Shown one piece after another: positions 3,341 through 57,622 of a stretch of 64,000 bases of DNA. Source of the DNA: Muricea muricata. Lineage: Eukaryota; Cnidaria; Anthozoa; Malacalcyonacea; Plexauridae. Under the pieces are notes generated by a model that saw nothing but the letters and a program-made list of their open reading frames with translations, was not told where the DNA came from and did no database searches. Location: contig OY979718.1 in the NCBI GenBank assembly GCA_963855995.1, forward strand, positions 28,863,282 to 28,927,281. The letters run 5' to 3'. The translations under genes were made by a program, and so were the position numbers. Positions within the stretch are counted from its first letter, which is position 1. Each line of letters opens with the position of its first letter.

Positions 3341-3455
3341 CAGATCGTTGTTGATTCTGAATATCCTACAACAGCATGACAACCAAGTGCTTTAGCATGA
3401 GACCTAATCTCAGTTCGAATTTCTCTCCACCATGAATCTCTAGTTTCAGGTTCGT
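3341..3455 (-). CDS. C2CD5: C2CD5 exon E
   Basis: Acceptor TTATCTTACAG ends at 3456. The exon starts with two bases completing an Asp codon and reads [14 protein letters not shown], then [19 protein letters not shown]. The donor is GTAGAT at 3335-3340, leaving phase 2 (TG). This is one of the most conserved stretches of the protein. The next exon must start with C, T or G, and I do not see it between here and the left edge. Confidence 0.9.
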
Positions 3456-6400: not shown

Positions 6401-9400
6401 ACAAAGCGCCACAAAAGATTCTAAATAATACATGTTAAGCTTATAGTGTTCATAAAACATTAAACAATTATTGAATGAGGTCGAGCAGGATATAAGGAAT
6501 TATTAAGGCCTCGGTTTGTGTAATAACATAACATGGACATTAGGAGCAGTATCATTATAGACATTAATCATAATTATAATACTGTAGAAAGGAAGAGGGT
6601 CATATAGGAGCACAAAAGAAAGGTATTCTTTCAAAACCAGGAACGATCAAGTGAAAAGTGGTTTTGGATTTCCATGTAGTTGGATTTTCTTACTAAAACC
6701 ATAAAAAAACATACGCAAATATTTATTGCTAGAATCTTAAACTTATGAAAATAGAATATGAAATATTTACTTGGGTTGCTGTGGAAACAAGCAACGTATT
6801 CGTGAAAATACTCACTCCCCCCGGCATGGTCACCCACGAGGAATTTTAGTAACGATCGTGCGTGACTTTCAAATTATTTTGAAGCTTTAAACTTTGACAC
6901 CGATTTTGTGTGCATGGGTTTTTGTATTAAAATTTAATCGAAGTTTATAAAAAAGCTTCAGAATCGGGAACAATGCGGCAAGACTTCGTAATGGCGGATA
7001 TTTTGGCTAAATATCGAGGATACAAAATCGAAGACAAAGTAGACGGCACAGTGTAAGAACAAGTCGAAACTGGGCAGAATTGTTCTTTAGTCATCTGCGA
7101 TTATGAAAAAGTATAAGAATTGTATGATACTTCGACCACTCGGCGATTAAAAAGCAAACAAAAGGGAAGATATGGCTGAAATCCTGTTTTTGCGGGGTAA
7201 GTGAAATACAATGCCTTATATATCAACAAAATAATGTCAATGCTTTTGAGATCTGCAATAATTGGATTCAACTGAACATGGTTTTTCATGTTATAATTTT
7301 TTTTAGGAAGTATGAAAATTTAATTTCTGCCAGCAATTTTAGTGATTTTGTGCATAATTAGCTGCTGACCTGGCATTTTGAGTGGTGATTTTCTTGGAAA
7401 ATATTATAGATAGGCAATGTCTTGCTTCTAATAACCACCTCTATAAGCAACCCTCCCAAACACTACAGGCACTTCAAAAAAGCTGTTGCTTGCATTGGTC
7501 TTAAGTTAGACATATGTAAACACTGTCGTTTTAGGGCGCGGTCATTTTGAGGACTCTCGTCCCGGATTCAGGTCTTGGCACATAAGCCATGTTGACCGCC
7601 ATGGTCGTTTTACCCTCAAACAAATTATCTTTGGTAAATGAAACGCATGCAAAACCCTACACAGGATCTAGACTATACACACAAACACGCTTCTCAGCTA
7701 AAATTTTGGAAGTTAAACGATAGTCAATTAGGGTAAATTTATTGACAAGTTCCGAAAACCCCACTGGTATCAAGCAAACATATTTTTAAAGCTCGTAATA
7801 ATATTCTTAAAATTATGTCTGCCAACGTTTTGCAATGAACCAAAAGCAAAAGTCTAAAATATTGAAATTGGAGTGAAAGTACAGAAAAATGGGTTTCACC
7901 AATGTAATATTCACTGATGGATGCCGTGCTATGCCATATCTCCTGTTCGAAACGTCATCGGCACGGTGGACGAAGAGCCCCATATTCTGGCAAACCACAA
8001 TAATATAGTATTTTAGGACCATATTGGTTTAAACGTGGTGTGAAGGTTGACTCCCAGGGCTACTGCACATTTCTGAATGAACACCTTGTGCCCTAGTGGA
8101 ATAATTTACAAACATGTTTCCTTTTGTGCTGCACGATAATGTTCTTCCAGACACTGACAGGCAGTCTAGCATTAGCGCTTCAATACTCAGGGGAGTTGGA
8201 TCATTAAGTTGAAAGTATATGTTGTTAAGAGCTCTTTGGTGTTCAACAGTCGACATGTTTAATAACATGCTCGATTGTTCACAGATGCTTTAATAACTAT
8301 GATGAGTAGTGTAGGCCAACACGACACACTATACCTGGATTATTAATTCTATCCAGGAGTTTCACGGATCTAGCACAAACTATGCCTCCAATACTACGTA
8401 GAAATCGAGGAGGAAACTTCGTTAAAGTAAAGAATGGAAATTCCTGAAAAAATAAAATATGATACAAACATTGCCTGATGTTTTCTATTCACCCAATTTT
8501 TATATTTTGTTATTTCACGCGCCTCAGTCTTGAAAAAGTATAAGTAATTGATAAACCAAGAGTAGCCGATCTGCATCTGATTTACTTGCGCGAGCCGAAG
8601 GCGAACGGTAGTAGATCGGATACTGACGGATGAAAACGCTTTATTCTATACGTTTGTATTTTTCATAATCTCAAATAAATTAGTAATTTCCCGCCAGAAA
8701 ATCAACTTTAAAGTTCATTTAAATCAGGGAAACGTCTTTACCCGATTTACATATCTTGATTAACTATGTACTTCTTTTGTATTTTCTTAATGAATTATTG
8801 ATTATGTTATAAACAATTAATAAAGATTACTATAATCACATAGGTGAAAAATGAAAATAAAAATAAAAAAAAGAGGGGGGACTTCTAACCTGAAACTTCC
8901 GCGACATCCAAATTCGAAGCTCAAACTTTGAACTTTCAACGTTATATTTATGGTATCTTACTTTAAACCTTGAATTTGAAGTTCAAACTAAACAGCTCAT
9001 ATATAAGTTCAAAGAATTATCATGTTTGTATATGCTCACCTTGCTAATAGGTAATCATTTCATCAAAAATGATAGACAAAGCAACATTAATAGAACTAAC
9101 TCGCGTTTGTAACTGCTCAAATCACTCGTGGTGGTGCCATATAGAATAAAATGCGTGCCATATTGAATAAAAGGCGAGACTGCCTGCCTCTGCTTAAACA
9201 CACACAACACATAAGCTCGTTTACTATGCTCTCGCTATAATGTAAGAAGCCACTCCTCGTTACAAATCATAGTTTTGATGTCCAATCAAAGTTAAATCAA
9301 ATTTGGAACTTACAAATTCGTCTATTGTTCTCTGTTTTGTCATTGTGTGACGAGGCATCTTTGAAGTTCCCAAGGTTGCACCTAAACTCCCCTTCTCAGC

Positions 9401-12400
9401 ACTACCACTGCAGTCTAAATATAACAATCATTTTGTGTTGCTTCCGTAGTGCCTCCCAACACCCTTATTCCAAAGTCACCTGCGCATATACAGTACTGTG
9501 TCATTGCTGTGTTAAAACATTTTAGCGTTCTTTTTCTAGCAATGTTAGCAGTATGGTTGGAATGCTGATAATACTTTAATGCCCCTCTGATAACTTGTTA
9601 ACTGTTTTTCACAACATTATGAGCACCATGAAGTGCAATTTAAAGCTACCATCTTTTGGAGACTCGATGATTAACATGCGTTTGTAGCCTTTGAGGTACG
9701 GAATGCATCAAGTAGTCAGGGCGTATGCTGTATATGACGTACAGTACATTTTTCTAGCAATAAATTTTTTTCGGCTATTTCAAGAGCCCATGATTTTCAA
9801 TTGCCACGACAACTAAAACAAACATATCCTTTAGTAAACCGTGTAATTAAATTTCGTTTAGTGGTTAATGAAAGTTAGTTTTTAAAAGCATTGGCAATGG
9901 GCATAATTATCACAACTGAAATCAATTCCCCTTTTTCCTAGTTTTTCACAATCATTATATAGAATTAGGGAGGATTGGAGGATGGGATTAATTTATTTCA
10001 TTTGAATTTTATCAAAATTAAAAAAAAATGAAAGTGAACCTTTTAAAGGTGAACCACAATCTGAATCCGTCGATGAAGTTCTTCTTTTTCGTTGAATATT
10101 TGGTGGAAACGATTTTGAAGGATCAGCTGACAATCTTAAAATTCATAAATGAGTATTACCACTAATGTTACTTTGGCAAAGTGTAGACGGTGGTGTAGCG
10201 GCAAGGATTGATGTCGAAAAGAAAGTAACAAGTTTTATTATAACACGAATCGTAAAATAAATAAGTAAAATTTGAAGGGATATGACAAACAGAATGTCTC
10301 ATTTGAAAGCCATAAATCATACCTCATTTAGATTTTTTATACCTCGCTTATTTCATGAGATTTTGGTGAGCTTTGGTGAGGTCGCAAGAAGAGTTAGCTA
10401 CATAAAACTAATGCCAAGTGCTTAAATTACTTTATAACATAAGCAGAGTAAAATCTGCAATGTGATTGGCTAATGAGCGTGATTTGACATCATGCACGCG
10501 GCTAGCTTTTTCGATCTTTTGGGTAGCTATAAACTCGTCAAACAATGAGACAGTTGTCTTGGGGAACATCGAGCTTGTAACATTCTGAATAATTTTATCA
10601 AAAAAAAGTAAATTGTTTTTTTAGAGTTTCATCGTCAATCCTGCAGAATAGCACTTTTCTAGGCACTTTTAACGAAGTATTCATTTAAAGCAATAGGGGG
10701 TATAAATGTTTTGTAAAGCCTTGCGTGTATGGCAAACCTCTGGATTAATGTGTTGTAGTTTTTTGCCTGTTTTTAATTCCACGAGCGATGTATTTTGCGT
10801 TTAATCAAAGTCACATGCTCATCACGTGAAATTGAGTTGCCAATCTTATGTAGCTATATTAGTATAGGTAATAGTATGGTTTCGAGTGCAATTACGGATA
10901 AACAAGCACGAGTGAGTTTTTAAAAACTGCAAAATAGCACGAGTCCGAAGGACGAGTGCTATTTGCGGTTTTTAAAAACTCACGAGTGCTTGTTTTCCGT
11001 AATTGCACGAGAAACCATACTATTACTTGATAATAATATATATAGAAATGATCGAGACAAGATGACAAACATCCGGTGATCACGAACGCACCAATTTCCG
11101 GTCGTTTTAATTAAATTGTTATTGTAATAATTCAAAATACACCAAAATAACTGTACAAGTTGGTTGTTTTTTACCGTATATTACACAACATTTGTTAATT
11201 GTTTTAATGACAGAATATTTACGGCAGTCCGTGGCAGGTTTCTACTCAAATTTTTAAAAATTCCAACGTATAAAAGTCTTTTAACGTTCTCGTAAAACGA
11301 AATATTCAAACGAAGTTCAAGTCGAACTAGTCGGAATCGCTTTCAAACATGAGAGTTCGCCGTCGCTTTGGTTCTGAAATTTGAACATCCGAATCCGATC
11401 GGCTGGGTGGTATGACATTAAAGGTGACATTGCAGTTGTGGAAAGAGTTACCAAACATCTGATGCTTGTTTTCATGTCTTACTAATGACTGGCTGAAACA
11501 TGGTTTGTCGAAGGCCATATTTGTTGTTGTGGAACCCGATCGTTTGTCGTCGATATTGAAGGAAGGGTTAGATATTTGCAAGTTGTTTCGTCGGGATATT
11601 TTTGTAGAAAGATCTCGTTGCTCAACTTCGTCTCCTTCGTCGTAGTCGTCAAGGGACTGCAAGTTGCGATGGCCAGTAACTTTCACGATGGAGGATCGCT
11701 CGACATTAGTTTTTTTCAACTTGTTGACCAGAGTCTTTCGAGCGCTGTGGTTTGTCAGTTTCTTGTAGGTGGCTTCGAGTGACGATCCGGCTACGATTCG
11801 CTTCATCATTTCATTGACACGATTGATGCCCATTGGTTGTGCTTTATACCAAATCTCGTCTTTCGCGCCGTAGTTAACAGAAAGGTAAAAGGGGCCTGTT
11901 GTTTTCATTTGTTTTGGTCGTCGTGACAAGTACTCTTTAAAAAGCGACACTGGACAACGTTCTCCTCCTGTGGCAAACATTTTTGGTGAGAAATCTCGGG
12001 ACTTTTTTGATAATCCGCCACCTCTTGTTTTAGTCAGCTCTTCGGCGAATTCGACGTACTCTTGTCCGTCATCGTCTTTGCGAAGTGCAAAGTCGTCCAC
12101 TTTCATGCTGTGGTGCTCTTGGCGGCCTCGCAAACCAAAATATTGTGTGAGTATCTACCAAATTGTATTGACTAGGCTTTCTGGGCTATTGTTTCCAAGT
12201 TTACCAGCTACCCATAGCATTTCTTCCTCCTCCTTCGACAAACTTCTTGCCTTGTTTTGACGCTTGCCTTTTCCTTCTTCGCGAAGTCGTCTGGCTTTCC
12301 CTTCGAGCACTTGCTTTGAAGTGGAAAACTCCCTGTCACGAATAATGGACTGTCTATAACCGTGTTCTTTTAAATGTCGGTCAAGAGCTGCAATCATAAC

Positions 12401-39400: not shown

Positions 39401-42400
39401 TTTTCATGTACAGAAGTTATGTACAACACACTATTTATTAATTATATTTAATTTACATATATGGTTGCCTTCTGTTCACCTTTTTTACATAATTTACAAC
39501 ACTCCAATCCTTTAGATAGAGTGTTTATGTCGATAATTCTGCTGCCCTGAGGTAGATTTTCCTTTCTTTGCTGTTTTGCCTAATTTTAAAATATTAAATT
39601 TACAACTTCGTTTTAATTTAGGGTTATTGAATGTGAACGTACGGGCTAATAAGCGCGGCCTACCGTGTTTGAACGAGTCGCTATCGCGATGTTTTTCGCT
39701 GGTTCAAAAGTTTCATTTTCTTTTTCCTGGCTTGAAATACGTCGTGTTTTCCACGTCTGAAGCCTTTCTATACGTTTTTTTTGGGCTCCCTCGTCGTTCT
39801 GCTTCAATTTTTCGAAATTTTCCGGACGGAAGACGATAATTAAATTTCGCTGCCATTTTATTTACATTTGCTTTGGCATTTAAAAATTCCGCGCGCGATG
39901 TTTTTCCCGACACTCCCTAAATTGTTCCGCGAAAGTCCCGCGCCACGAAATTTGCTCTTTCGTTACCAGACCCCATGAAAACAAGAGCAGGGAAGCACTT
40001 CAACTTGGGTGTTTTTTATGTAGCCTTCTTTAAACAAGCGATAGCCTAACTTCTCATCTTTTTTAGTGGTGGATGGTTCCGCCAAGCCCAAATGTTTTTG
40101 TAATTTATCATTTAACTCCCATTTTTCTACTTTATGTTAGCTAACACACCAGTACATCGAATAAAGACCAAAAATACAATATTGTAAAGCCTTCAATGGT
40201 CTTTAAAGGCAATGTTTACATTTTTCCCGCCAAAACTTTCAAACAAAACAACCCAGGCTAGCCAAGCCGCTTTGATGAATAGAACAATCGAAAAGCCGAG
40301 AGCACATGATAATTTTAATAAACAAAACGAGAGCAAGGAAATATACATACAAGTCTGAAAACAAGGCATGCTAAGGAACTGCAATACAAGAGATATTGTA
40401 CATAGCAGAATTATTCCGCGATCGAAACTAACTACGTAAACTAACCTCTTCAAAGTGAGCAGTTCGTCCGTTTAAAGGCCTTTTTTCGACGCATAGACTA
40501 TTTGCCTCTCGGTGTTTGAAAAGCCCCTTACGCTGTTAAAATTGCATCGATCCTTTTATTTTAACATGATTTGAAAGCTGGGAATTTGTTTTCCTACAGG
40601 GCACTGTAGTTGTGTCGATCGTTGTAAAAATAGAGGGGCAAAAATTGAAAGGATTTCGTTGCAATAACATCGAGTCGCATGCGAGCACTTCCCTCACGGC
40701 AACTGAAATTGGCTTTGATAATCAACTACCGTCACACATTGTGCCTTTGCACGCAAAGAGAGAAACGTCTATTGACGCGTTTACCGTATCATGGAGGAAT
40801 TTAAAATTTTATGCCTTCCACCATTTAATGTAGCAGCAGCTGTTAAAAAAATTCAGACAGGGGGGGGTCAGGGAATCTGTGTCATTCTAAAATGGCCGAC
40901 ACAGAATTTGTATGCAAAACCTTTTCACATGATGACCAAGGACAATTTACATTAAAGGAAGAAAAGATCTATTAATGTTACCAAGCCATCCCCACGAAAT
41001 TCATCCAGTTTGGGAAAAGATGAACCTCACAATCTGCCTTCTATCTGGGAAAACCCAGAAAAATACGACTTATCAGCTGATGCGAAAGAAGCAATAATGG
41101 CCTCGTAGTAACCAGGTACATCAAAGCAGTACAAAACATACTTAGATTAATGGCAGATGTACCGTAGGAAAAACAAAATGTATGTATTTAAACCACGTTT
41201 AGAATGCAATTGAGTTTCTTGTCACGCTTTACAAGTCTGGTATAGGGCACCATGCCATCAACACTGCAAGGTCAGCGCTTTCTAACTTAATTACACTAGA
41301 AAACGGCATGAAGTTGGGAAAACACCACCTTGTCACAGGTCACGGAAGCACGAGAGGCAAGATGGCGGTCGATCTTGCTCTCTTGGCAATTTAATAAATT
41401 ATTTGATATTTTGTTTCAAATTTATGTTAAGTCTAGAGAACGATGGATCAAAAATCTCTTGAACAATTAGTTAGCAAACTTTTGGATAAAAAGCTCAATG
41501 TGCTGAAAACATTGGAAGAACTTAAGTCCAAAATTTCTGTGATCAATAAATTTGAAGAAGCAGTATCATTTCTTAGTACACAATATGATGATCTTCTCCC
41601 TAAGTTAAGTAATCTGGAGTCAACTAGCACCAGTATTATCGAAGAAAATATTTGTTTGAAATCTGAATTACAAAAGGCAACTAATGATCTTCAAATGGTG
41701 AAGCAATAATTAAATAATGCTGAGCAATACTCACGCAGAGACTGTCTTGAAATACGAGGGATACCGTTACAAAGAAATGAGATCTGTAATAACCTGGTCA
41801 AGAAGGTTGGTGATTTAATTGGCATAAAGTTGACGATCATGATATTTCAGTAAGTCATTGTCTTCCTGGAAGTGCTCAAAGGCAATCCAATACATCGCAG
41901 GCTGCAAGTAAGACGATAATCGTAAAATTTGTTAGCCGTGATATTCGCGATAAATTCTATTCGTCAAGGAAAACCTTCGAGAAAATTCGACCAAAGACAT
42001 TGGCCTGACAAGGGTAAGTGAACATAGAATATTTATCGGTGAGAGTCTTACAAAACAAAATCGTCGACTTTTTTATCTTTGCTTGGAACGGAGAAATCGT
42101 TTGAAGTATCGATATGTTTGGACATCGGCTGGAAGAATATTTCTCCGCAAGGATGAATCGAGTCCAGTAATTAGTGTTCTAACTTTGAAAGATCTTGAGA
42201 AAATTACAAACGAGTGAAATTGTTTGGTCAGTTGAGTATTAGTAATATAATCTTTGTTTGATTAAATGTATTCTCCCATGCAGTCACACAGTTTAAATAA
42301 TCTGCCTCAATTGGACTTGATACAGACCTTGAATTGCCAAGATGACATTTCTAATTTAGATCCGCATTTAAATATCCCTTGTCAGTGTAATTTCAAATAT

Positions 42401-45400
42401 TATACAACTGATGAGTTTCGAAATGACGATTTTATAAAAAATTGTATTTCTGTGAATCATCTCTCTTTTCTGCATAACAATATCAGAAGTCTTAATGCTA
42501 ATTTTGATAATTTTGTAAAAATGTTATCTGAGCTTTCCTGTAGCTTCTCGGTAATAGGGCTTAGTGAAACTCGACTTAATGACAGATTGGAAAGCACTTT
42601 TAATTATCATCTTGACAGTTACTCTTTTGTCTCTCAGCATAGTCTATCTAATGCTGGAGGGGTAGGACTTTATGTGAAAGATAATTGCTGTTATGATGTG
42701 AGGCATGATCTTTCTGACTCTGTGGCAGGATTTGAAACCCTTTGGATTGAAATCCAAAGTAATCGTAATCACAATATTATTTGTGGGGTATTTTATAGGC
42801 ACTCCACAGTAATATTGATGCCTTCATAACTTTTCTAAATCAAACTCTTGACAAGATTAGTAATGAACAGAAGAATTGCGTTCTGATGGGTGACTTTAAC
42901 TTAAATTTACTCAATGTTGATTCTCATCCTTCAACTGAAGAATTTCTGAATACCTTAGGGCCATATTTCTATAATCCACATATACTTAAACCCACACGTA
43001 TAACTAATCATTCAGCTACTTTGATTGACGATATGTTTTTCAATTCTTTATCATACAATTAGTGGAAATCTTGTTTGTGATTTGTCTGATCATCTACCAA
43101 ATTTTCTTATTATAAATAGCCTGTCAACATTACCAAAAAATATTGAGATCTCCAGAAGAGATTACTCTCAGTTCAATCAATCAAACTTGATTAATGATGT
43201 CGAATCTGTTGATCGGTCCTTTAATTCATCTAGCAATGATGTCAATGTTATGTTTGATACATTTTACTCAAGATTATCCAATATAAATTAATAAAGTTAA
43301 TTATTATCGAAGATATTTTAGTTCTAATACAACTCATATAAAGAATATTTGGAGGGGGATTAAACAAATTATTGCACTGAAACCATTGTGTAATAACATT
43401 CCAACAAAGCTTCTTGTTAGTAATAATGAAATTACTGATACTTATCATATGCCCAATTCATTCAATGATTTCTTTGCTAATGTTGCTAATAACGTTGTAA
43501 GCAATTTGCGACCATCTAGTTATTCTCCCTTGTCATTTACGCCCAACTGTAGACAATTTCATAGTTTTTATCTAAGTCCAACTAGTGTTGATGAAGTCTT
43601 GTATGAAATAAGTAATTTAAATTCATCAAAGAGTTGTGGTGCATTTAGTATCCCCATTACAATCTTGAAGTTATTAAAACATCAAATATCTTTATCTCTA
43701 GTGGACATATTCAATTGTTCATTTTCTACAAGTACTGTACCAGAAAAATTCAAGATTGCTTCTGTAATTCCAGTACATAAGCAAGGTTCAAAATTCAATT
43801 TGAATAATTATCGCCCTATTTTATTGCTTTCAATTCTCAGTAGAATCCTAGAAAAAATGGTTTTTAAACAATTGGACAGTTTCATTGTAAAGCATAATTA
43901 GTTGTATGAAAATCAATATGGATTTAGATCTAATCACTCTACTCTGCATGCAGTTATTTCAATTACAGATAAAATTCAAAAAGCTATTGATCAAGGTTAT
44001 TATTCATGCGGAATTTTTCTGGACTTATCAAAGGCTTTTGATATGGTGAATCATCAAATTTTGTTAGATAAGCAGGAATATCACGGAATAAGAGGATTAG
44101 CCAAACAGTGGTTTGAAACCTATTTAATGAATAGGATGCAGTTTGTTTCCTTGGGTAGTTGTAAGTCTGACATGTTAAATATTTCTTGTGGTGTTCCACA
44201 GGGTTCAGTTTTAGGACCTATTCTTTTTTTGTTGTACATAAATGATTTCAGTAATTGTTCTACAATTCTGGATTTCCATTTGTTTGCTGATGATACTAAT
44301 ATTTTCCATAGAGATAAAAGCTTATCAAATCTGGAATCAACTGTTAATAATCAACTTTCATATATAAATGATTGGCTTTCTTCCAATAAATTGACACTAA
44401 ATGCTGACAAGTCTAGCTTTATTGTTTTTCATCCAACTCAGAAAAAAATTTCTAACAGCTTTCAGGTACACTTTAACGGCCATTTACTTAAACGTGAATT
44501 TAGGTGTAATTATGGATTGCCATTTGAGTTGGAAGGATCATGTCTCACACATATCAAAGAAAATAAAACGTAATATTGGAGCGTTATCTAAGATACGCCA
44601 TTTTGTTAGCTTGGACATTCTTAAAAGTTTGTACTATGCTTTGATATTTCCATGTTTAACCTATTGCTTAGTAGCTTGGGGTAATACGTACTTTTCGTCT
44701 TTGTTACCGCTGAACAATTTACAGAAAAGAGCAATACGGATAATTACATTTTCCGATTATAATGAACATACAAACTCTTTATTTTTGAGTCTTAACATCA
44801 TTAAGTCGTATGATCTTGTTCATTTTCAAACGGCGTTGTTCATGTACAATTACCATTACAATAATTTGTCTGAGTCCTTCAATTCTTTTTTTCATGTGGT
44901 GAGAGATAAACACGATTATAATACTCGATTTGCAGTTGGGTCAACATATTCTATTCCAAAGTTTAGAATCAACTATGGAAAATTTAACATAAGATTTGCC
45001 GGTGTTAAGGTGTGGAATTCGATTAAAGAGTCTACTAAAAAACTTACAAAATCTCAGTTCAAAGTCAAATTAAAAAATGATATTTTTCAGTTGTATATCA
45101 AGTCCAATTGGGTGTCTCCTCCTATGTTTAATTTATTGTGTGTCTATTTTTCGAATCATTGAACTACTTAATATGATCATAATTTACTGGTTCCTTTTTC
45201 CTCTCATACATTATTATAGTTATTTTGTTATATGGACCAGCTACCTGCCTAGATTAGCCCAATGGTTATTGCAGCTAGCTGATCACCTTGTATTATGTTA
45301 TTATTTTTATTCATTATTTCCTTGTAAATTTTGGTGATAAATAATAATAAATTGTAATGTATTGTAAATTGTATCGTATTGTAAATTGTATTGTAATTGT

Positions 45401-48400
45401 AAATTGTTACACGTTACATGAAAGGAATTTTCGAGACTAGACCAGTTCCCCCAAAGTACTCTGAAATATGAGTTGTGTTAAATCACCTAAAAACATTTGC
45501 GCTGGTGAGCGCTTTACCGCTGAAGGAACTCGCATTAAAACAAACGATGCTTTTAATGCCTCACTCTACGGGGCAGCGGGGGCAAACAACTGACAAGATG
45601 GATGTTAGTGGGATACAAGCATTACAAGACAGATACAGAATAAGCACTAATACGTCAAATCCGGACAACATTTGGCATCGATTGACTTACTGGCATTCCC
45701 TGAAGAACAAAGTTTTTGTGTCATAAAGACCCTGGAGGAGTATTTACACTTAACATATCAACATAGAGATAAACATTCTCAAGTCTTGCTCAGGTATATC
45801 CAACCATCTAAACCAATTTCAAAAGAAACGATTGCTCGTTGGTTGAAGGTTGTTCTAAAATCTGCTGAAATTGAGGTTGCAAAATGTTCAGCACATAGCA
45901 GTCGAGCTGCATCGACATCGACTTGTAAGGCAAAGAGCCTCACCATGAAGAAGAAAATGGCAGCCGCAGGTTGGTCGAACGCGGGAACATTCGGAAAATT
46001 GTATGAAAAGCCAGTTAATATAGAAAGCCGGAATTTCGGTAGGTCCTGTTGAAACAGTAAACATTGGTTATATGTATTAGGCTTATATATGTATTCAGTG
46101 TATGACAGTTCGCAGTCGAGGACCTGAAATTTCATGGGACTCTTTCGTGACAGGAACTGATGACAAGATAGAATTCTACAATTGAACGAGACTTACCTGG
46201 AAGTCGAAGTTTTATTGGGATTCTATTTTGGTCGTCAGTTCAGACCGAAGGAGTCACATACCCAAGTACCCGCCCTTTCCTTATTTAATGTCTAAACTTC
46301 GTGTACTACCAACGTTGAAAACTGATCAGCAGATGCGCATGCGTATCTCATGTGACTCTCTCGTTTCGAACGGATGACCAAGATAGAATCCCAGTCAAAC
46401 TTCGACTTCTAGGTACGTCTCGTTTAATTTTATAATTTAGCGTGTTCTCCGCGTGTCCAGAGCAATATGCATTCCTGAAATAGCATGCTATCTGCATTCT
46501 ATGCACCTGCGCGTAAAAAACTCGATATTTTCAGACAGTTCCCGCATTTTTATTTATTCATTTATATAGCTTCGCCTATAATTACACAATCAGACAACAT
46601 ATACAACCATTTCTGCTCAACCTCAAAGCGCTCAAACATCAAAACGCACATGTTGTCATTTTAAAAAAAAGAACCATAAATTAATAAGTCCAAAATTGGA
46701 AAATAGGAAAGTTACTTAAAAACCTGGGAAACACGTAGACAAAACATACAAAGCAGAAGGGGCACAAAGCCTCGTTTCGAGGTTGAACAACGCTAGCATC
46801 AACAAAAACAACGACAGAAAGACGGGGACACCACAACAGCTTAAAAGTAAAATCCTATTACTGTGGGCCCTTGTGTATGGGAAAAAATATAACTAACATG
46901 TAAATTGTAATTGTTTTACTGAACATGTAATAGTAGCAGTACGTTAATGGCGGCATTGGTTTCCGCGATGTGTTACATTTCGGGCAAACTGTCCTGAGTT
47001 TTTGCAAGCATTTGAAAATACACTTCAGTGCTGACAATAAATTCTTTGGAGTTTTCAATACATTTTAAGATGAAATTTGAACATAAACTAAATAAAATTC
47101 AAAAACAAAAACGTGCGGTATTTAGACAACTAATACGGATATCGTTGGATAGTCTGAAACATACACGGAATTTAATGGTTGGTAAATCATTTTAAAATTT
47201 CAAATATGTGTAAAGGAAACTTTATTAAATTGTAGTAAGCTTCAGAATATCTCTTGCATGAAAATTATAGTTTTCTAGCGACCTTAGAAAAATTCGAAAA
47301 TGGCGTGCGTACTGTATCGGTACATAGAACATTTGTCGTTTAGCTCGCGTATTCCGAGCTTCAGGATGCCGATCACCAGAATACATCCATATATGGCTTA
47401 TTGTGCCATTATTGGTGGGACAAGTTGAAATGCAACACGGCTTGAAAAACTAGTGTAAAAGCGTCTTCCAACTCTAACAATCTTACCCAATGACTGCGTT
47501 TCCACCCAAATCAAGAACTTTCAATCCAATTTTCCTTTGCAGTTCTCCTGGAAAATATTCAATATTAGGCGACGGTGAATGACCATATTGCGTATGCAAA
47601 CATGTTGAGTTGGTAAAAATTTGCATTTGTGTTTTTTTTATTAAAACCACCTGGATTACTTTTGATATGCATGTTGCATGACAGGCAACCTCGTCCCCAG
47701 GGTCATCTTTGTGGGCGCGGTGAGGAAATAGATGACCCTGGTAAAGGCTGTAAAAATGTCCAAGATTCTTGGAGATTTTCGAGTATGCGCCGTCAGTGAA
47801 TAATGTGGCGCTGACTCAAGTTACCACTGGCACTGAGCATTGGCGTGCAAATTTTTACAATGTATACAGAAATTTACGCTCACATAAAAACAATATTTAA
47901 AAGAATGTTTTTTAAGGTATGATACTCAATATTAAAAAACAATTCAAACCAACCACAAGTTGTATATAAAAGCCCCAATCTAATAAATGTGCAGAAAATA
48001 TCATTTCGTTAAACCAATCACACTTATTGTCACAAACCCTTACTGGTCGAATGTGTTAACCAATGAACAAGGAGATTAGGACAGCCTTTACCAGGGTCAT
48101 CTATTTCCTCATCGCGACCACAAAGATGACCCTGGGAACGAGGTTGCATGACAGGCAAATAGTTTACTAGCTCATATATAAAATGGTTACCACGGGACCA
48201 AAATTATATTAATTTTTAGCCACTAATTCTACTACTAATTCTGGCATTAACATAAACCTGATGTTTAAATATAGATTATAGTAATTTTGTGACTAATCGA
48301 GCTTGAAATGTTACTATAAATTTAATGAAACCAGATAAAAAAATCAATCCATAACGACAGATTCTTCAGGGAATACGCCAGACATTCGCACTGCATGAGA

Positions 48401-48578
48401 TTAACGCCACATATTTTTGACAGCTCTATTACGCAAGACAAACTTAATTTGGTTAATAATTGTGATTTCGTTTTGAGAGATATACAAATAATTATCAAGT
48501 CATCTTACCCGAAAGTTTCTGAAAAAGTCTCTGGCGAGCCTCGTTCGAAGATCTTGGGGTTCGGAAGTTATCAATCCA
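3341..48578 (-). CDS. C2CD5: C2CD5 (CDP138)-like gene, seven internal exons over 45 kb
   Basis: Seven minus-strand exons join in phase with GT-AG borders and give about 235 residues: Z 48509-48578, A 47487-47547, B 13276-13431, X 10040-10134, C 9314-9414, D 8335-8443, E 3341-3455. The product matches my memory of animal C2CD5 in order and wording ([78 protein letters not shown]). C2CD5 is a cytosolic and membrane-associated protein with an N-terminal C2 domain, known in mammals for insulin-stimulated GLUT4 traffic. The GGNAVxGY and GCHAVVGY boxes belong to its repeated YbjQ-like domains. The C2-domain exons upstream of Z and the exons after E were not found and may lie outside the window. Splice phases are 1, 2, 2, 1, 0 and 1 between successive exons. 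I see no stop or frameshift, so the gene is probably live. The family name is from memory, not a search. Confidence 0.88.
3511..4427. repeat. Left arm of a 0.9-kb inverted duplication
   Basis: This stretch is the reverse complement of 6755-7611 with scattered changes and small indels. Shared strings include AGCTGCTGACCTGGCA and GGTCACCCACGAGGA. A run of C at 3907-3917 is an insertion relative to the other arm. Both arms and the 2.3-kb spacer lie in the C2CD5 intron between exons D and E, so the whole is probably one foldback-type transposon of about 4.1 kb. Confidence 0.8.
3901..4107 (-). CDS. Short conserved reading frame in the inverted-duplication arm
   Basis: ATG at 4107 in a fair Kozak context opens a 68-codon frame: [16 protein letters not shown], then [18 protein letters not shown], then [14 protein letters not shown], and ends after a G-run. 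The copy in the other arm preserves the same frame over most of its length, with several changes at third positions, which suggests past coding constraint. In the other arm a GTAAGTG follows directly after the codons for FLRG, so this may be a first exon. I do not recognise the protein. Function unknown; the confidence is that it was once coding. Confidence 0.35.
   Translation of the reverse strand: MATILASCRWFKIEDKVVGTVSEQVETGQNCSLVICDYGNVQELCDTRANKKENMAEIVFLRGAGGGK
4428..6754. other. Spacer between the inverted arms; no gene recognised
   Basis: Contains a small hairpin TTCGCCTTCGGCGAA (4785-4800 area), very A-rich low-complexity DNA at about 4930-5110, and a possible tRNA-derived SINE near 5300-5540. 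A pyrimidine tract ending CAG at 5661 and a GTAAGT near 5934 could bound an exon, but no frame between them looks coding. Open frames at 6092-6414 on both strands have no recognisable content. Confidence 0.5.
5300..5540 (+). repeat. Possible tRNA-derived SINE
   Basis: GGCTGAGTAGCTCAGT resembles a pol III A box, and about 40 bases on GTGCTCGACTG resembles a weak B box. The following text (ACGCCTAATGCTCACCTGAC) looks like a SINE body. No target duplication was identified, so the call is weak. Confidence 0.3.
6755..7611. repeat. Right arm of the 0.9-kb inverted duplication
   Basis: Reverse-complement partner of 3511-4427. On the plus strand an ATG at 6991 opens [16 protein letters not shown], matching the frame in the left arm but broken by two in-frame TAA codons. 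A GTAAGT at 7197 follows the codons for the last shared residues, and a tract ending TTTTTTTTAG lies near 7300. Homology stops sharply near 7611. Confidence 0.75.
7612..8334. other. Intronic DNA; possible transposase trace
   Basis: No gene supported. Plus-strand frames near 7890-8110 read [10 protein letters not shown] and [16 protein letters not shown], which faintly resemble Tc1/mariner transposase text (TDE box and following strand), but stops and the lack of further motifs leave this unproven. The last bases run into the donor of C2CD5 exon D. Confidence 0.25.
8335..8443 (-). CDS. C2CD5: C2CD5 exon D
   Basis: Acceptor TTTATTTTTTCAG precedes the exon, which starts in phase 0 and reads [15 protein letters not shown], then [18 protein letters not shown]. 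The donor is GTATAG (8329-8334), phase 1, which fits the start of exon E exactly (a split Asp codon). Family members usually show FPPGF where this copy has FPPRF. Confidence 0.9.
8444..9313. other. C2CD5 intron C-D
   Basis: No gene. A GCGCGAGCCGAAGGCGAACGG string near 8590 resembles the apex of the palindromic elements elsewhere in the window. A 21-base near-duplicate (GTGCCATATAGAATAAAATGC) lies at about 9132-9173. Confidence 0.5.
9314..9414 (-). CDS. C2CD5: C2CD5 exon C (linker)
   Basis: Acceptor ATATTTAG, donor GTAAGT (9308-9313). The exon reads [16 protein letters not shown], then [10 protein letters not shown], in the position of the Ser/Gly-rich linker of the family just before the FPFFT box. 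The phase (split Asp codon at the start, phase 0 at the end) fits both neighbours. Less conserved than the other exons, so the call leans on position, splice sites and phase. Confidence 0.7.
9415..10039. other. C2CD5 intron X-C
   Basis: AT-rich, no repeat or gene recognised. The short plus-strand frame at 9325-9525 overlaps exon C and is a shadow. Confidence 0.5.
10040..10134 (-). CDS. C2CD5: C2CD5 exon X (Ser-rich linker), tentative
   Basis: With an acceptor at ATTTTAAG and a donor at GTTCAC, both weak, this 95-bp exon reads [18 protein letters not shown], then [13 protein letters not shown]. It supplies the phase change (2 to 1) needed between exons B and C, and its Ser/Lys-rich text fits the family's variable linker. 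A stronger-looking CAG acceptor five bases downstream would not keep the frame. A transcript is needed to settle the borders. Confidence 0.55.
10135..10866. other. C2CD5 intron B-X, part
   Basis: No gene or repeat recognised in this AT-rich stretch. Confidence 0.5.
10867..11027. repeat. Foldback element, about 160 bp
   Basis: Near-perfect palindrome: GTAATAGTATGG at one end pairs with CCATACTATTAC at the other, and ACAAGCACGAGTGAG pairs with CTCACGAGTGCTTGT. The apex is AGTCCGAAGGACGAGT. It lies 300 bp downstream of the Crypton-like ORF, but no link between them is shown. No clear target duplication. Confidence 0.8.
11327..12658 (-). pseudogene. Crypton-like tyrosine recombinase, one in-frame TAG
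   Basis: A single frame of 443 codons runs from ATG 12658 (MAGASSERF) to a stop at 11327-11329, broken only by a TAG at 12155-12157. All tyrosine-recombinase residues are visible: Arg in GLRGRQEH just after the stop, H-x-x-R in NHSARKTLV, His in KVTGHRNLQ and the nucleophile Tyr in LDDYDEGDE. The N-terminal half is helical and charged (core-binding part, [19 protein letters not shown]). This pattern fits Crypton transposons and their domesticated relatives (KIAA1958-type), which cut and rejoin DNA through a 3'-phosphotyrosine. The break sits between the core-binding half and the catalytic half. It may be a recent mutation, a recoded stop or a sequencing error. It lies in the C2CD5 intron B-X in the same orientation. 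Confidence 0.75.
12724..12828. repeat. 21-bp tandem repeat, five units
   Basis: Five units of GTTGTTACAGATTTTTGCAC plus T, the first slightly diverged. It starts 66 bp upstream of the recombinase ATG, and CCAAT strings lie on both sides (12713 and 12859 areas), so it could be part of that element's promoter. Inference only. Confidence 0.85.
12973..13112. repeat. Small inverted-repeat element (MITE-like)
   Basis: GGTAGCCCAATAATTGATGG at the left pairs with CATCAATTGTTGGGCTACC-type text at the right, and a second block (TTTTTGGTTCAATAAA against TTAAACCAAAAA) lies inside. Total about 140 bp, AT-rich loop. Confidence 0.7.
13276..13431 (-). CDS. C2CD5: C2CD5 exon B
   Basis: Acceptor TCCTTCATCACCAG, donor GTAAGTAT. 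It starts with one base that completes the split Gly codon left by exon A 34 kb away, and reads [20 protein letters not shown], then [19 protein letters not shown] and [10 protein letters not shown]. The join gives the conserved [16 protein letters not shown] text without a gap, which is the main evidence that the 34-kb gap is one intron. Ends in phase 2. Confidence 0.9.
13432..14604. other. Start of the 34-kb C2CD5 intron; no gene recognised
   Basis: A minus-strand frame at 14233-14451 reads [19 protein letters not shown], then [18 protein letters not shown]. It looks protein-like but has no recognisable family, start codon or splice borders. Nothing else stands out. Confidence 0.35.
14605..15097. 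mobile_element. MITE of about 490 bp
   Basis: Terminal inverted repeats of about 32 bp with the core AAAGGGAAATGGCAACAAAA; an inner pair, ATATCTG/CAGATAT next to CAAAATTTTTATA, lies just inside. The interior holds two copies of a CCAAGATGG/CCATCTTGG string and no ORF. Single ends of the same type occur at 24711 and 32750. Confidence 0.75.
15098..17156. other. No gene recognised
   Basis: A minus-strand frame at 15258-15467 reads [20 protein letters not shown], then [20 protein letters not shown]. It has protein-like composition but no family I know. Frames at 15450-15695 and 15978-16330 show no motifs. The rest is AT-rich intronic DNA. Confidence 0.35.
17167..17396. mobile_element. 230-bp foldback MITE with 10-bp target duplication
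   Basis: Ends are GGTCATGGCTTTATAG and its exact complement; the two arms of about 100 bp pair with few mismatches around the apex GCGAGCCCGAAGGGCGAG. The element is flanked by GATTAGGGAG on both sides (17157-17166 and 17397-17406). A 9-10 bp duplication is typical of Mutator-like elements, so it may be a non-autonomous MULE; that step is inference. Confidence 0.9.
17564..21249 (+). pseudogene. Decayed multi-domain gene of an uncharacterised repeat-borne family
   Basis: Pieces in order: MSRKSG (17564), an intron 17580-17674 (GTAAGG to TTAG), then [19 protein letters not shown] and [13 protein letters not shown]; a coiled-coil stretch ([20 protein letters not shown], about 18500-18600); [20 protein letters not shown]; the core [56 protein letters not shown] and [18 protein letters not shown] (to 19305); [20 protein letters not shown] and [19 protein letters not shown] (to 19832); DHLEGGKY and [25 protein letters not shown]; and two Tudor-like repeats ([11 protein letters not shown]...LFIRYDGYD, then [13 protein letters not shown]) ending at 21249. 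The Asp residues in HSDG and MSDR could be part of an RNase H-like DDE core, so it may be a transposase. Several frameshifts and stops (near 17968, 18100, 18674, 19303, 19470, 19874, 20238, 21007) show it is dead. I recall related proteins, without a named function, from corals, fish and molluscs. Confidence 0.65.
21308..21495. repeat. Two-unit tandem duplication
   Basis: AATGCGCAACTGGCTGC and AAAAAGTTCCAACCAG each occur twice (near 21313/21416 and 21396/21475), giving two diverged units of about 100 and 80 bp just after the decayed gene. Confidence 0.7.
21496..22186. other. No gene recognised
   Basis: AT-rich intronic DNA without a repeat or ORF that I can assign. Confidence 0.5.
22187..22484. 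promoter_or_regulatory. Cluster of CRE-like sites and an RFX-type palindrome
   Basis: GACGTCAT, TGACATCA and TGATGACGTCA lie within 22190-22223; TGACGTC and TGATGTCA follow near 22353-22372, and TGACGT again at 22454. GTTGCCATGGCAAC at 22467-22480 is a perfect palindrome matching the RFX X-box consensus, and CCATGGTAAC at 22379 is a half-match. Whether any factor binds here is unknown; it could also be part of a repeat. Confidence 0.4.
22485..23123. other. No gene recognised
   Basis: Short frames on both strands without motifs. No repeat identified. Confidence 0.4.
23124..23181. repeat. GACT/CACT microsatellite
   Basis: Tandem tetranucleotide run, first ACTG then ACTC type. Confidence 0.9.
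23430..24063 (-). pseudogene. RT C-terminal remnant with GIY-YIG-like domain
   Basis: Reading the minus strand: [18 protein letters not shown], then [20 protein letters not shown] and [18 protein letters not shown] (24063 to about 23860); [17 protein letters not shown] (near 23715-23660), a GIY-YIG-type nuclease start; and [20 protein letters not shown] (near 23570-23500), a Cys pair that follows the nuclease in this family. Several frameshifts separate the parts. It matches my memory of a cnidarian RT family whose catalytic part resembles the pieces at 2640-3075. Confidence 0.6.
24187..24258 (+). repeat. tRNA-like sequence, probably a SINE head
   Basis: TAGCTCAATTGG fits the A box and AGTTCAAATCC the B box of a pol III promoter. 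The D arm (GCTC-loop-GAGC) pairs perfectly and the T arm has one mismatch, but the anticodon stem and the acceptor stem do not pair well. That makes a functional tRNA unlikely and a tRNA-derived SINE or pseudo-tRNA more likely. Confidence 0.6.
24259..24710. other. No gene recognised
   Basis: Frames at 24259-24368 and 24510-24716 carry no known motif. Confidence 0.4.
24711..24744. repeat. Single MITE end
   Basis: CTTAAAGGACAATGGCAATA followed by AAAAATTTTATTG matches the terminal repeat of the MITE at 14605-15097. I found no partner end nearby. Confidence 0.5.
24990..25203. repeat. Array of six hairpins with a shared GGGGTTAAGATCCCC apex
   Basis: The apex starts at 24996 (variant GGGATTAAGATTCCC), 25027, 25062, 25103, 25134 and 25169; spacings are 31, 35, 41, 31 and 35, so the array is a 107-bp unit of three hairpins present twice. 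The arms outside the apex differ between hairpins but stay complementary within each one: TGTCCAA pairs with TTGGACA, and AATGTTAGA with TCTAACATT. That points to selection for, or generation by, pairing. No cas genes, and the spacers are duplicated, so this is not a CRISPR. Confidence 0.85.
25204..26439. other. No gene recognised
   Basis: Frames at 25225-25645 lie on both strands without motifs. T-rich runs occur near 25610 and 25660. Nothing assignable. Confidence 0.4.
26440..27091 (-). pseudogene. Gag-like or SAP-domain protein remnant
   Basis: ATG at 27091 opens [17 protein letters not shown], a TGA at 27038-27040, then in the same frame [28 protein letters not shown] and [14 protein letters not shown] to a TAA at 26846. 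The [16 protein letters not shown] text fits a SAP (DNA-binding helix-extended-helix) motif. In other frames [19 protein letters not shown] and [10 protein letters not shown] follow down to about 26440. Base composition is richer in G+C than the surroundings. It resembles the first ORF of a retroelement, but no RT is linked to it. Confidence 0.4.
27092..27684. other. No gene recognised
   Basis: AT-rich; a CGCCATCTTGG string near 27582 and GCGTAAATGGCTGGGT near 27632 are shared with the MITE-related stretch at 32.5-32.75 kb, so a diverged copy may lie here. Confidence 0.35.
27685..27980. repeat. Foldback element, about 300 bp
   Basis: ACAGCCGGTTTAAAGTGAAT pairs with the complement ending at 27972. 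Paired blocks continue inward (GTAAATCACTT, ATCAAATTAG, AAATTTGTTTTA) to a centre at CATAGGCCACTGATG. Arms are about 140 bp with small indels. Confidence 0.8.
27981..28439. other. No gene recognised
   Basis: AT-rich DNA. Only the TA that precedes the mariner-like element at 28440 is notable. Confidence 0.5.
28771..29945 (-). CDS. PLE reverse transcriptase/GIY-YIG, 5'-truncated (left copy)
   Basis: The frame enters from the junction near 29940 and reads [18 protein letters not shown], then [19 protein letters not shown] (RT motif B), [12 protein letters not shown] (motif C with both Asp), [15 protein letters not shown], and ends with the endonuclease start [20 protein letters not shown] and HTRISEHLG (GIY-YIG, here Y-V-G with the following Arg), then the Cys/His-free tail [16 protein letters not shown] motif A, with the first catalytic Asp, and everything upstream are missing, so it cannot be active alone. 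No stop or frameshift is present in about 390 codons, which suggests a recent insertion. Confidence 0.85.
29946..30805 (+). CDS. PLE GIY-YIG part (right copy)
   Basis: Same protein as the left copy from [18 protein letters not shown] to the end, almost identical (one visible change: TGSFTNF against TGLFTNF). It lacks motifs B and C. The near identity shows that both arms were made in one event or are kept alike by conversion. Confidence 0.85.
31848..32191. other. No gene recognised
   Basis: AT-rich intronic DNA right of the mariner-like element. Confidence 0.5.
32192..32425 (+). pseudogene. THAP-domain fragment
   Basis: ATG at 32192 opens [18 protein letters not shown], then CFFRFPSLQ; after a frameshift near 32290 the text goes on [19 protein letters not shown], then [14 protein letters not shown]. 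This is the THAP pattern (V-x-G-C, F-R-F-P, W/F-x-x-x-C-x-R, C-x-x-H, F-E-P), with the third zinc ligand Cys replaced by Phe before S-L-H. THAP domains bind DNA in P-element-type transposases and host factors. The rest of the protein is not recognisable. Confidence 0.6.
32426..33458. other. MITE-related DNA and unassigned sequence
   Basis: A single terminal repeat of the 14.6-kb MITE type lies at 32716-32750 (TTGTTGCCATTGTCCTTTAA), with a CGCCAAGATGGCCGC string 150 bp left of it. Nothing recognisable between 32751 and 33458. Confidence 0.45.
33459..35628 (-). pseudogene. Mutator-like transposase remnant with DEDDh exonuclease and SWIM parts
   Basis: Read on the minus strand: [20 protein letters not shown] and [19 protein letters not shown] (35628-35400); GWQKRG-like text with two stops at 35375-35380, then [49 protein letters not shown] and [10 protein letters not shown] (to 35090); [29 protein letters not shown] (to 34700); [33 protein letters not shown]; then an exonuclease start [20 protein letters not shown] (34200-34080) with ASKVNNFT further on; finally a SWIM zinc finger [20 protein letters not shown] (33600-33540). 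The first part matches my memory of the animal Mutator-like transposase family. At least four frameshifts or stops show it is dead. Its N-terminal part lies at 39096-39206, beyond a retrotransposon. Confidence 0.7.
35629..39095 (-). mobile_element. Non-LTR retrotransposon, near full length
   Basis: The element holds one intact ORF (35840-39055), a 3' UTR of about 190 bp, and ends in an (AAT)n tail at 35629-35665. It lies inside the Mutator-like pseudogene: the transposase text stops at about 39096 and resumes at about 35628. The exact ends and any target duplication are not clear to me. CR1/L2-type by protein content and short-repeat tail. Confidence 0.8.
35840..39055 (-). CDS. Endonuclease-reverse transcriptase with N-terminal 2A-like motif, intact
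   Basis: 1071 codons from ATG 39055, no break. Residues 11-25 are hydrophobic ([15 protein letters not shown]). Residues 81-100 end in [14 protein letters not shown], a 2A-like peptide, which in related elements makes ribosomes skip the last Gly-Pro bond; here Ser stands where the usual Glu of D-V-E-x-N-P-G-P would be. An apurinic-type endonuclease spans about 142-365 (HQNIRG, SETHI, GCIYRPP, GDMN, SDHD). The RT spans about 585-900: [17 protein letters not shown] (Asp724), [16 protein letters not shown] (Asp813 and 814), TYLGTTLD. The C-terminal part has no nuclease motif. The complete frame and intact catalytic residues make this the youngest-looking element in the window and perhaps a live one. 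It copies its RNA into a nicked genomic target. Confidence 0.92.
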   Translation of the reverse strand: MAVSTLTQRSCYLVVVLLFWTLWKFRRDSKSLYSNGSLFTAFKLDMKQFPGRNSGLPRQSCNSKLSTLVKFRAGLLLTRTSLTAAGLILLAGDVSSNPGPVFSATSEVQAENLSFSSRVENYCNETCPEPNSLAGLTKMKGVNIFHQNIRGLFGKMANLSTVFELGKDIDIYTLSETHIVNNSEFDNDKLYQIPGYHFVKKNRPSGQHGGVAAYISNKLQWKERPDIKSESLECIWIEIFPVKAKSFLVGCIYRPPDSFLYHLKDFNKLFECMLSIVNELKMETILMGDMNINYLKKSDHQELKDIINIAGLKQIIDSPTRVTTESSTLIDIILTNSEQNIAKWKVVPLSLSDHDCVGCVRKLNNRKYTGKTIKIRNYSNYNSTEFCKDINAENWHKLYLIQSVNEAWAFMEDLLMRNINKHAPIIEKRVKGRFCPWLSPELKNLMNTRDKLHRKARKTNTETDWIAYKQLKNRCNNAVKQAKYEYHRNLQDETCNNPKKFWRVIKNIFPKASSKQTSLDEDCTTDTKTVANKFCKFFSTMAFKLKQKSMPLRNFTWGKPPAQSKVRTNKQFEFTYVSKIFVEKQLKALKRGKSPGHDNIPPGILKDAASELATPLSYIINLSLRTGVVPSKWKIAKVTPIHKSGPTSSFDNYRPISVLPILSKILERAAHKQLTEFLESNNLLSRNQFGYRKRRSTEYATALFTDNIRKEADTGNLVGAIFVDLSKAFDTLSHSILLVKLESYGIVGIEHKWFSDYLFQRKQVCSYKNTLSDEFALTCGVPQGSILGPVLFLLYLNDLEENLIHSRAVLFADDTVLYVADPSFSTIESKLNADLKNLYKYFTENELVINLKKNKTESMLFGTAKRLSSCPDELDLRYHDTKIISTTTYTYLGTTLDKTLNMGENFRVTYRKLSSKLRLLSSLKPCLTKKSLGMIYQGIILPTVLFNCIVNLNYSNTQLTMLESIDCRVQKILGEKRPSTLNEIHKHAVLLVKKCMLGVTNEHFSDYFTLKVHDKPTRNNGALLCIPKVKLNLAKSGFFSMGVKIFNALPIEIRRTESFSDFRNRVKHLYL
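39096..39206 (-). pseudogene. N-terminal piece of the split Mutator-like transposase
   Basis: Minus-strand frame [20 protein letters not shown], then [15 protein letters not shown]. It precedes, in this protein family as I remember it, the [17 protein letters not shown] text found 3.5 kb away at 35.6 kb. The C-x-x-C/H-like NCGHVN may be half of a zinc site. Together with 33459-35628 it shows that the retrotransposon inserted into this gene. Confidence 0.6.
39207..40891. other. No gene recognised
   Basis: A minus-strand frame starting with ATG 39856 ([20 protein letters not shown], then [17 protein letters not shown], to 39713) has a good Kozak context and basic composition but no known family. 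It could be a first exon or chance. The frames at 40193-40453 and 40612-40833 have no motifs. Confidence 0.35.
40892..41341 (+). pseudogene. Tyrosine recombinase, core-binding half (split gene)
   Basis: ATG at 40892 ([19 protein letters not shown]). In shifting frames the text goes on [20 protein letters not shown], then [11 protein letters not shown], then [20 protein letters not shown] and LGKHHLVTG. This is the SAM-like core-binding domain of tyrosine recombinases found in many invertebrate elements. Stops (two TAGs after the codons for IMAS, one after YLD) and frameshifts show it is dead. The catalytic half lies at 45410-46052, after a CR1-like insertion. Confidence 0.65.
41443..42217 (+). 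pseudogene. CR1-like ORF1, coiled coil plus RNA-binding part
   Basis: ATG at 41443 ([19 protein letters not shown]) begins a coiled coil of about 88 residues. A TAA at 41707-41709 is followed in frame by [19 protein letters not shown], a box typical of retrotransposon ORF1 RNA-binding domains. After a frameshift come [20 protein letters not shown], then [19 protein letters not shown] and [15 protein letters not shown]. The protein would coat element RNA. One stop and at least one frameshift make it inactive. Confidence 0.6.
42266..45162 (+). pseudogene. CR1-like ORF2, endonuclease and RT with several breaks
   Basis: ATG 42266 begins the frame. The endonuclease shows [30 protein letters not shown], then after a frameshift MGDFNLNLL, and later DLSDHLP. 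The RT shows [18 protein letters not shown], a TAG at 43899-43901, [50 protein letters not shown], and after a frameshift [15 protein letters not shown] and the C-terminal [10 protein letters not shown]. Catalytic Asp residues are kept, so the breaks are fairly recent: about three frameshifts and one stop. Confidence 0.85.
45410..46052 (+). pseudogene. Tyrosine recombinase, catalytic half (split gene)
   Basis: [17 protein letters not shown], a [12 protein letters not shown], then [13 protein letters not shown] (catalytic Arg), [15 protein letters not shown] after a frameshift, [30 protein letters not shown] (H-x-x-R), [16 protein letters not shown] (Trp and the nucleophile Tyr). All five catalytic positions are readable. 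Joined with 40892-41341 it is one recombinase of about 350 residues. The inverted repeats just downstream (46180-46429) could be the element's end. Confidence 0.75.
46180..46429. repeat. 80-bp inverted repeats downstream of the recombinase
   Basis: AATTGAACGAGACTTACCTG pairs with the complement ending at 46429; the paired text continues through GAAGTCGAAGTTT and GGGATTCTAT to GAGTCACAT. A third, partial copy (GATGACAAGATAGAATTC) lies at 46158-46176. This arrangement recalls the terminal or split repeats of tyrosine-recombinase elements, but the link is inference. Confidence 0.7.
46430..47224. other. No gene recognised
   Basis: A minus-strand frame near 47060-46915 reads [20 protein letters not shown], then [18 protein letters not shown], after one stop. 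It looks protein-like but I know no family. The rest is AT-rich. Confidence 0.3.
47225..47449 (-). pseudogene. Unknown protein-like frame in the 34-kb intron
   Basis: A 74-codon open frame reads [20 protein letters not shown], then [20 protein letters not shown], then [20 protein letters not shown]. Composition and the Cys cluster look like real protein, but it lies just inside the donor of C2CD5 exon A, so it cannot be part of that mRNA if exon A joins exon B. Probably a remnant of a transposon-borne ORF, or chance. Confidence 0.2.
47487..47547 (-). CDS. C2CD5: C2CD5 exon A
   Basis: Acceptor ATATTTTCCAG, donor GTAAGA (47481-47486). The 61-bp exon reads [19 protein letters not shown], beginning and ending inside Gly codons. 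The first Gly is completed by exon Z, the last by exon B. The GGNAVIGY box is the heart of the first YbjQ-like repeat. Confidence 0.9.
47689..48143. mobile_element. MITE of about 455 bp in the C2CD5 intron Z-A
   Basis: Terminal repeats of about 75 bp: CCTCGTCCCCAGGGTCATCT at the left, with the complement (GGGTCATC...CGAGG) at the right; AGATGACCCTGGTAAAGGCT forms an inner part. TTGCATGACAGGCAA flanks both sides (47674-47688 and 48144-48158), so the target duplication is 11-15 bp depending on where the element ends. No ORF. Confidence 0.85.
48509..48578 (-). CDS. C2CD5: C2CD5 exon Z
   Basis: Acceptor TTATTGTGTTTAG, donor GTAAGA (48503-48508). Starts in phase 0 with Trp and reads [20 protein letters not shown], then KLS and one base of the split Gly codon. 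It fits directly before exon A. The preceding exon should end with a Glu/Tyr/Gln-rich stretch; I could not find it up to the right edge. Confidence 0.9.
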
Positions 48579-48766
48579 CTAAACACAATAATTTATTAAT
48601 ATTAGCTATATTGTTGAAAACGATCTAAAAGGAAGTGAAGTACTCTCGCGATGATACGGATTAACATCAGTAGACTAATAGGATGTTTGAAAGCCAGAAA
48701 TACACAATCAATATTGCCAGGTTGATTAGTAATTGTCTGAACTTTGACATATCGTTATTAGTCAGC

Positions 48767-48832
48767 ACACGCACACGCACACGCACACGCACACGCACAC
48801 GCACACGCACACGCACACGCACACGCACACAC
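48767..48832. repeat. ACACGC microsatellite
   Basis: About ten tandem hexamers of ACACGC. Long frames here on both strands are repeat artefacts. Confidence 0.95.
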
Positions 48833-53400: not shown

Positions 53401-54080
53401 GACAAAATATCAGTTTTTAACCCTTGTTTTATTGACAATTTTTTTAAATGGCACAACATTTGTCATCAGTATGTTATTACGCCTAATGTAAGCTTAAATT
53501 TCGTATAAAATACGACCTATTAATTACGTTAGTAATATCAAAGAAGACAGTCTTGCATTTACATAAACTTTCTCTGGAATTTAAACAGTGAGTAGACTGG
53601 ATGAGTACGGCTACGCCGGCCTTTATAAAGCATTAAAACACAAGTGTAAATACGCATTATCAACAAACTTGCCTTGTGTTTCACGCAATAGTCAATTCTT
53701 GGCGCTTCTCTGTATTTTCCCCGAATTAATCTCTCTTCAAGAGTCTTGTGGCAGCCGTTTTCGTCTTATTTCTCGTCTTTTTGGATGCCTTAAGTGTTTG
53801 CTACTCCTGATAGTCCGCCATAATCCTGACATCAGAAATGACTACCCTTCGTTGGTTGTGAAAGTTGCCAAATCTTTTTGTAAAAATACAAAATATTGTA
53901 GTGCAATATAAACCGCCATATTTTTGAGATCAGTGATGACCACCCACTCACCGCCACCCTTGGACCACGCGCCCGCGATATTTGATGAACTTCAGACTTC
54001 GCTATGCTTTCCTTTTCCCGGGTGTAAATAGCCGTGTGGAATTAGTACACTCGCACGGCGCTTCGCGCCGTTGGCTCGGG
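50412..54080. mobile_element. Large inverted-repeat element, 3.7 kb
   Basis: Ends are CCCGAGCCAACGGCGCGAAG and its complement. The arms are 50412-51350 and 53270-54080, clearly related over most of their length (for example GCATGCAGCAACCCCTCGCC and complement at the inner ends), with one larger difference near 50760-50900 against 53730-53860. The left arm carries a small frame MESSKQRKENEEAERLARRN, then ERRRRQRLEETAEED, of the kind seen at the start of some helicase/transposon proteins. The 1.9-kb centre holds a minisatellite. No transposase seen, so probably a non-autonomous foldback element. Confidence 0.8.
52480..53065. repeat. 31-32 bp minisatellite, about 18 units
   Basis: Consensus CTTTTGGCTTGTTGACAAG followed by ATGTCGGTTAGG. 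Units are best conserved at 52740-52990 and decay on both sides (further faded copies to about 53180). It lies within the centre of the inverted-repeat element. Confidence 0.9.
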
Positions 54081-57600: not shown

Positions 57601-57622
57601 CAGCGACTTTGCAGTGTTCGCA

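Follow-up and report, generated by a model that had tools for sequence, protein, structure and literature searches.

The stretch of Muricea muricata DNA analyzed here, 64,000 nucleotides long and referred to below as the window, is almost certainly a section from within an ordinary C2CD5 orthologue, with exons spliced from one pre-mRNA and introns that have grown by the insertion of mobile elements. The first-pass annotation had proposed seven minus-strand exons between positions 3341 and 48578, with GT-AG borders and in-phase joins, and its coordinates, read on the minus strand, are exact in the final model. The same is true of the join that it drew from 47487 to 13431 across 34,055 bp, over which a protein of the octocoral Paramuricea clavata aligns without a gap. 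The C2CD5-like identity is likewise borne out: homology extends over each of the seven exons, and two stretches match the Pfam family PF23025.

All exons are short and lie on the minus strand. Exon 1 (48509–48578, 70 nt), delimited by its AG and GT borders and by phase, contains the start of the first YbjQ-like domain. Exon 2 (47487–47547, 61 nt) ends in GGNAVIG, and exon 3 (13276–13431, 156 nt) continues with FDLEGESG and carries the remainder of the first YbjQ-like domain together with the start of a linker. This linker extends through exons 4 (10040–10134, 95 nt) and 5 (9314–9414, 101 nt). The second YbjQ-like domain starts in exon 6 (8335–8443, 109 nt) and continues in exon 7 (3341–3455, 115 nt). 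Taken singly, exons 1 to 5 score 52.0, 44.3, 97.8, 58.9 and 63.5 bits, respectively, with the P. clavata protein (P0001), while exons 6 and 7 score 63.5 and 78.6 bits with a predicted snake C2CD5 (P0002). All seven acceptors are AG and all seven donors GT when the outermost borders, those of exons 1 and 7, are counted as well. Phase is kept at each of the six joins, and the spliced model of 707 nt gives 235 stop-free codons.

The six introns measure, in exon order, 961, 34,055, 3,141, 625, 870 and 4,879 bp. Intron 1 (47548–48508) contains an inverted-repeat (MITE-like) insert with arms at 47674–47772 and 48060–48158, intron 2 (13432–47486) is rich in mobile elements, and intron 3 (10135–13275) carries a tyrosine-recombinase element.

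Exons 1–3, 6 and 7 were located directly in a tblastn search whose query was a hand-written vertebrate C2CD5 sequence (E values from 2e-16 to 3e-5). The two linker exons were picked for their resemblance, splice sites and phase; a weak tblastn probe match (E 16) led to exon 4, and exon 5 is one of seven candidates from a splice-site scan. Both were later supported by the P. clavata protein, which was found after model building and played no part in it. The acceptor of exon 4 (TTTTAAG) is weak and its donor (GTTCAC) departs from the consensus; support for this exon comes mainly from that one relative.

A protein search with the model recovered 205 proteins at E≤0.001 among 449 candidates, 120 of the 205 being listed. 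The best among the matches listed is the P. clavata "C2 domain-containing 5-like, partial" (E 1.7e-88), which aligns with model residues 1–161, covering exons 1–5, without gaps and with 142 of 161 residues identical (88%), a level that by itself makes an octocoral host likely. This gapless alignment bears out the four joins of exons 1–5, including the one across 34 kb. The predicted snake C2CD5 aligns with all 235 residues at 53% identity with 17 gap positions, and thereby covers the remaining two joins (exons 5–6 and 6–7). The match to this C2CD5 of another animal is collinear over all seven exons (P0002, model residues 1–235). The two PF23025 stretches, which belong to the Pfam C2CD5 YbjQ-like domain, are matched with E 3.3e-47 and a score of 159.5 bits, where the cut-off stands at 29.1.

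Single-exon scores range from 44.3 to 97.8 bits with the P. clavata protein and from 38.9 to 78.6 bits with the snake protein (five exons each). In a control set comprising 100 Markov-randomized windows plus the window reversed, the best scores were 26.6 bits with P0001 and 28.5 bits with P0002, any match being found in 100/101 and 99/101 subjects, respectively. The exon scores are far above chance. A PDB sequence search gave one match, which is not meaningful (E 0.87). No relative of P0001 was confirmed among 2 pattern matches in viral_contigs and 34 in genome_contigs, and a literature search found no paper joining "C2CD5" with "YbjQ". An Rfam search returned one tRNA match. In the mouse, C2CD5 has been described as acting in trafficking and as regulating the secretion of norepinephrine (PMC13090686).

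The public P. clavata C2CD5-like model departs from C2CD5 homology exactly past the boundary of exon 5 (9314–9414). This departure is probably due to the annotation running into intron sequence.

The exon sequences, their borders and phases, their homology and the stop-free frame are read directly from the DNA, as is part of the element content. A processed copy is ruled out by the introns that lie between the exons. A duplicated, unprocessed C2CD5 copy in decay, with introns swollen by transposons since it is no longer expressed, would agree with the heavy element load and with the outer exons not being seen in the window. However, the 235 codons contain neither a stop nor a frameshift, the splice borders are kept in 14 of 14 cases, and identity to P. 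clavata reaches 67/68 in the first 68 residues, compared to 75/93 in the linker. This contrast is the pattern expected of a protein under selection. Given the intact frame and the much stronger conservation of the first 68 residues relative to the linker, a decayed copy appears unlikely, and we assign this explanation only a minimal probability.

For the functional orthologue, we infer expression, splicing and function. The seven exons would be spliced from a single minus-strand pre-mRNA, and the resulting message would code for the pair of YbjQ-like domains joined by the linker. Repeated insertion of mobile elements, which splicing would then take out, would have enlarged both the 34-kb intron and the outer ones.

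The gene was initially thought to frame most of the window. The seven exons at 3341–48578 stand, but the gene probably spans all 64 kb, as no outer exon was found. Searches for outer exons with the hand-written vertebrate C2CD5, P0001, P0002 and P0004 yielded only chance-level matches within the window, among the matches listed. The part of the P. clavata protein upstream of exon 1, residues 1–60, has no match at E≤5 anywhere in the window; the five exons present match this protein at 62–100%. With the C2 and C-terminal regions of the hand-written vertebrate sequence as queries, the matches listed beyond 48.6 kb and short of 3.3 kb were all at chance level, and the reading that the window has no exon past 3341 is based on this one sequence. 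The best upstream match among those listed (E 0.22, 21.6 bits) sits on a simple repeat (48733–48798). The N-terminal C2 domain (PF00168) was not found in the window and would sit beyond 64 kb. Since the outer exons were not found, the entire window probably lies inside the gene, with an intron of probably more than 15.4 kb before exon 1 and one of probably more than 3.3 kb after exon 7. Full-length C2CD5 has about 1,000 codons, of which 235 are seen here to be intact. The gene shares with C2CD5 of P. clavata and vertebrates the same exon text and two YbjQ-like stretches; it differs in that the window holds the middle of the protein only, the C2 domain and the C-terminal part not being found in it.

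Intron 2 had been described as full of transposons. It is element-rich, and the elements are intronic by position; about 48% of its length can be assigned to mobile or repeat features (16,192 of 34,055 bp, with spans set by hand). The strictest count, which includes the nested insert described below and frames above the Pfam cut-off only, gives no more than 7,714 bp (about 23%). One of the elements is a LINE on the same strand as the host gene (35840–39055, minus strand), with an uninterrupted ORF of 1,071 residues containing an endonuclease and a reverse transcriptase. Its nearest database relative, which stands for 31 sequences, covers 69% of the query at 98% identity. This LINE looks young and carries the text GDVSSNPGP near its N-terminus, which we take to resemble the 2A self-separating peptide motif. 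A second LINE on the plus strand (42266–45162, outer span set by eye) is broken into several frames; the frame at 43902–44570 matches RVT_1, while the frame at 42266–42826 has no Pfam match. A Mutator-like transposase remnant (34603–35022) is also present and, with an adjoining ORF, occupies 33852–35022 on the minus strand. A tyrosine-recombinase fragment at 45672–46052 (plus strand) matches below the Pfam curated cut-off. Hairpin and tandem repeats were also detected in this intron by repeat searches.

A nested insert occupies 28438–31849. Here a palindromic DNA element, flanked at each end by TA, is interrupted by a Penelope-like dimer in head-to-head arrangement. The arms of the dimer (28517–29638 and 29938–31059) are 1,122 nt each, differ by 3 mismatches and lie 299 nt apart. 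Pfam matches to RVT_1 (3.3e-5) and GIY-YIG (0.0011) are both below the curated cut-offs. A 13-bp direct repeat is located at 28506 and 31110, at the edges of the dimer insertion, and the inverted arrangement together with this repeat fits a Penelope-like element (EN+). At its right edge, the dimer has 50 extra bases (31060–31109).

Such repeats bear on the integrity of the assembly. Inverted arms of 1.1 kb are among the places where assemblies fail, and if a misjoin had brought sequence from elsewhere between real flanking exons, the 34-kb intron length would be wrong. Exon order, strand and phase are, however, right on both sides of the 34-kb gap, and the 13-bp direct repeat is what an insertion would leave, so that this part looks like real DNA structure. 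The chance of a misjoin seems to us very small, and we retain the reading of a single long intron.

Head-to-head Penelope insertions with short target-site duplications are known in the rotifer Adineta vaga (PMC3846280). The arrangement there is similar, with inverted repeats, 5′ ends facing inward and a short target-site duplication, but the duplications described in that report measure 8–10 bp (none in one case), compared to the 13-bp direct repeat here. The coral dimer also differs by sitting inside a palindromic DNA element. A host-gene transcript would carry the Penelope dimer as a long hairpin. We consider it very unlikely that such a hairpin RNA, transcribed with the host gene, feeds into RNA editing or into silencing of the Penelope family by small RNAs; if it did, the host gene would be the source of a silencing trigger against that family.

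Another part of intron 2, at 17448–21082 on the plus strand (span set by eye), contains a decayed copy from a protein family that has neither a name nor a Pfam match. The 20 related proteins found, named no more closely than "hypothetical protein", come from contigs of 20 different lengths. This element is probably mobile. The predicted model of its best frame is of low confidence (pLDDT 58.9, pTM 0.45) and shows the order strand-strand-strand-helix-strand, which would presumably fit the core of an RNase H-like transposase. On this model, the family could represent a transposase not yet described. The alternative of a nested host gene at 17.4–21.1 kb was judged less likely, given the broken frames and the naming and contig spread of the 20 relatives.

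Further elements and repeats are located outside the 34-kb intron. The tyrosine-recombinase frame in intron 3 (11330–12706, minus strand) has matches to DUF3504, Phage_integrase and QRICH1, is interrupted by one stop codon, and is, we assume, Crypton-like. The first part of a LINE in the upstream intron (57614–62131, plus strand) includes a GDSL-type hydrolase domain (PF13472). A minisatellite with 31/62-bp units is present at 52512–53017, and the ORFs at 50713–51027 and 53588–53911 have similar text on opposite strands.

If the window is the inside of one host gene, the elements in it are to be judged as intron passengers. The analysis indicates that a correct reading of short exons from raw sequence is possible even where tens of kilobases separate them. 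Gene models can break at such introns, as illustrated by the public P. clavata model, which leaves C2CD5 homology after exon 5.

The median intron of P. clavata is given as 382 bp (PMC7467007), and mean introns in the cnidarian genomes tabulated in PMC7642931 range, where given, from 800 to 3,572 bp. At 34 kb, intron 2 is a long intron for this group, judged against a P. clavata assembly that is fragmented (scaffold N50 near 24 kb) and shows long introns poorly. Transposon-rich long introns are already well known, and the C2CD5 finding is biologically ordinary. Animals with large genomes, such as lungfish and axolotl, also have very long introns in ordinary genes, and lungfish introns are reported to average 50 kb, with the largest at 5.8 Mb (PMC7875771). 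The coral C2CD5 intron is much smaller. Because introns in these animals are far longer, a transposon-rich intron of 34 kb is ordinary in kind.
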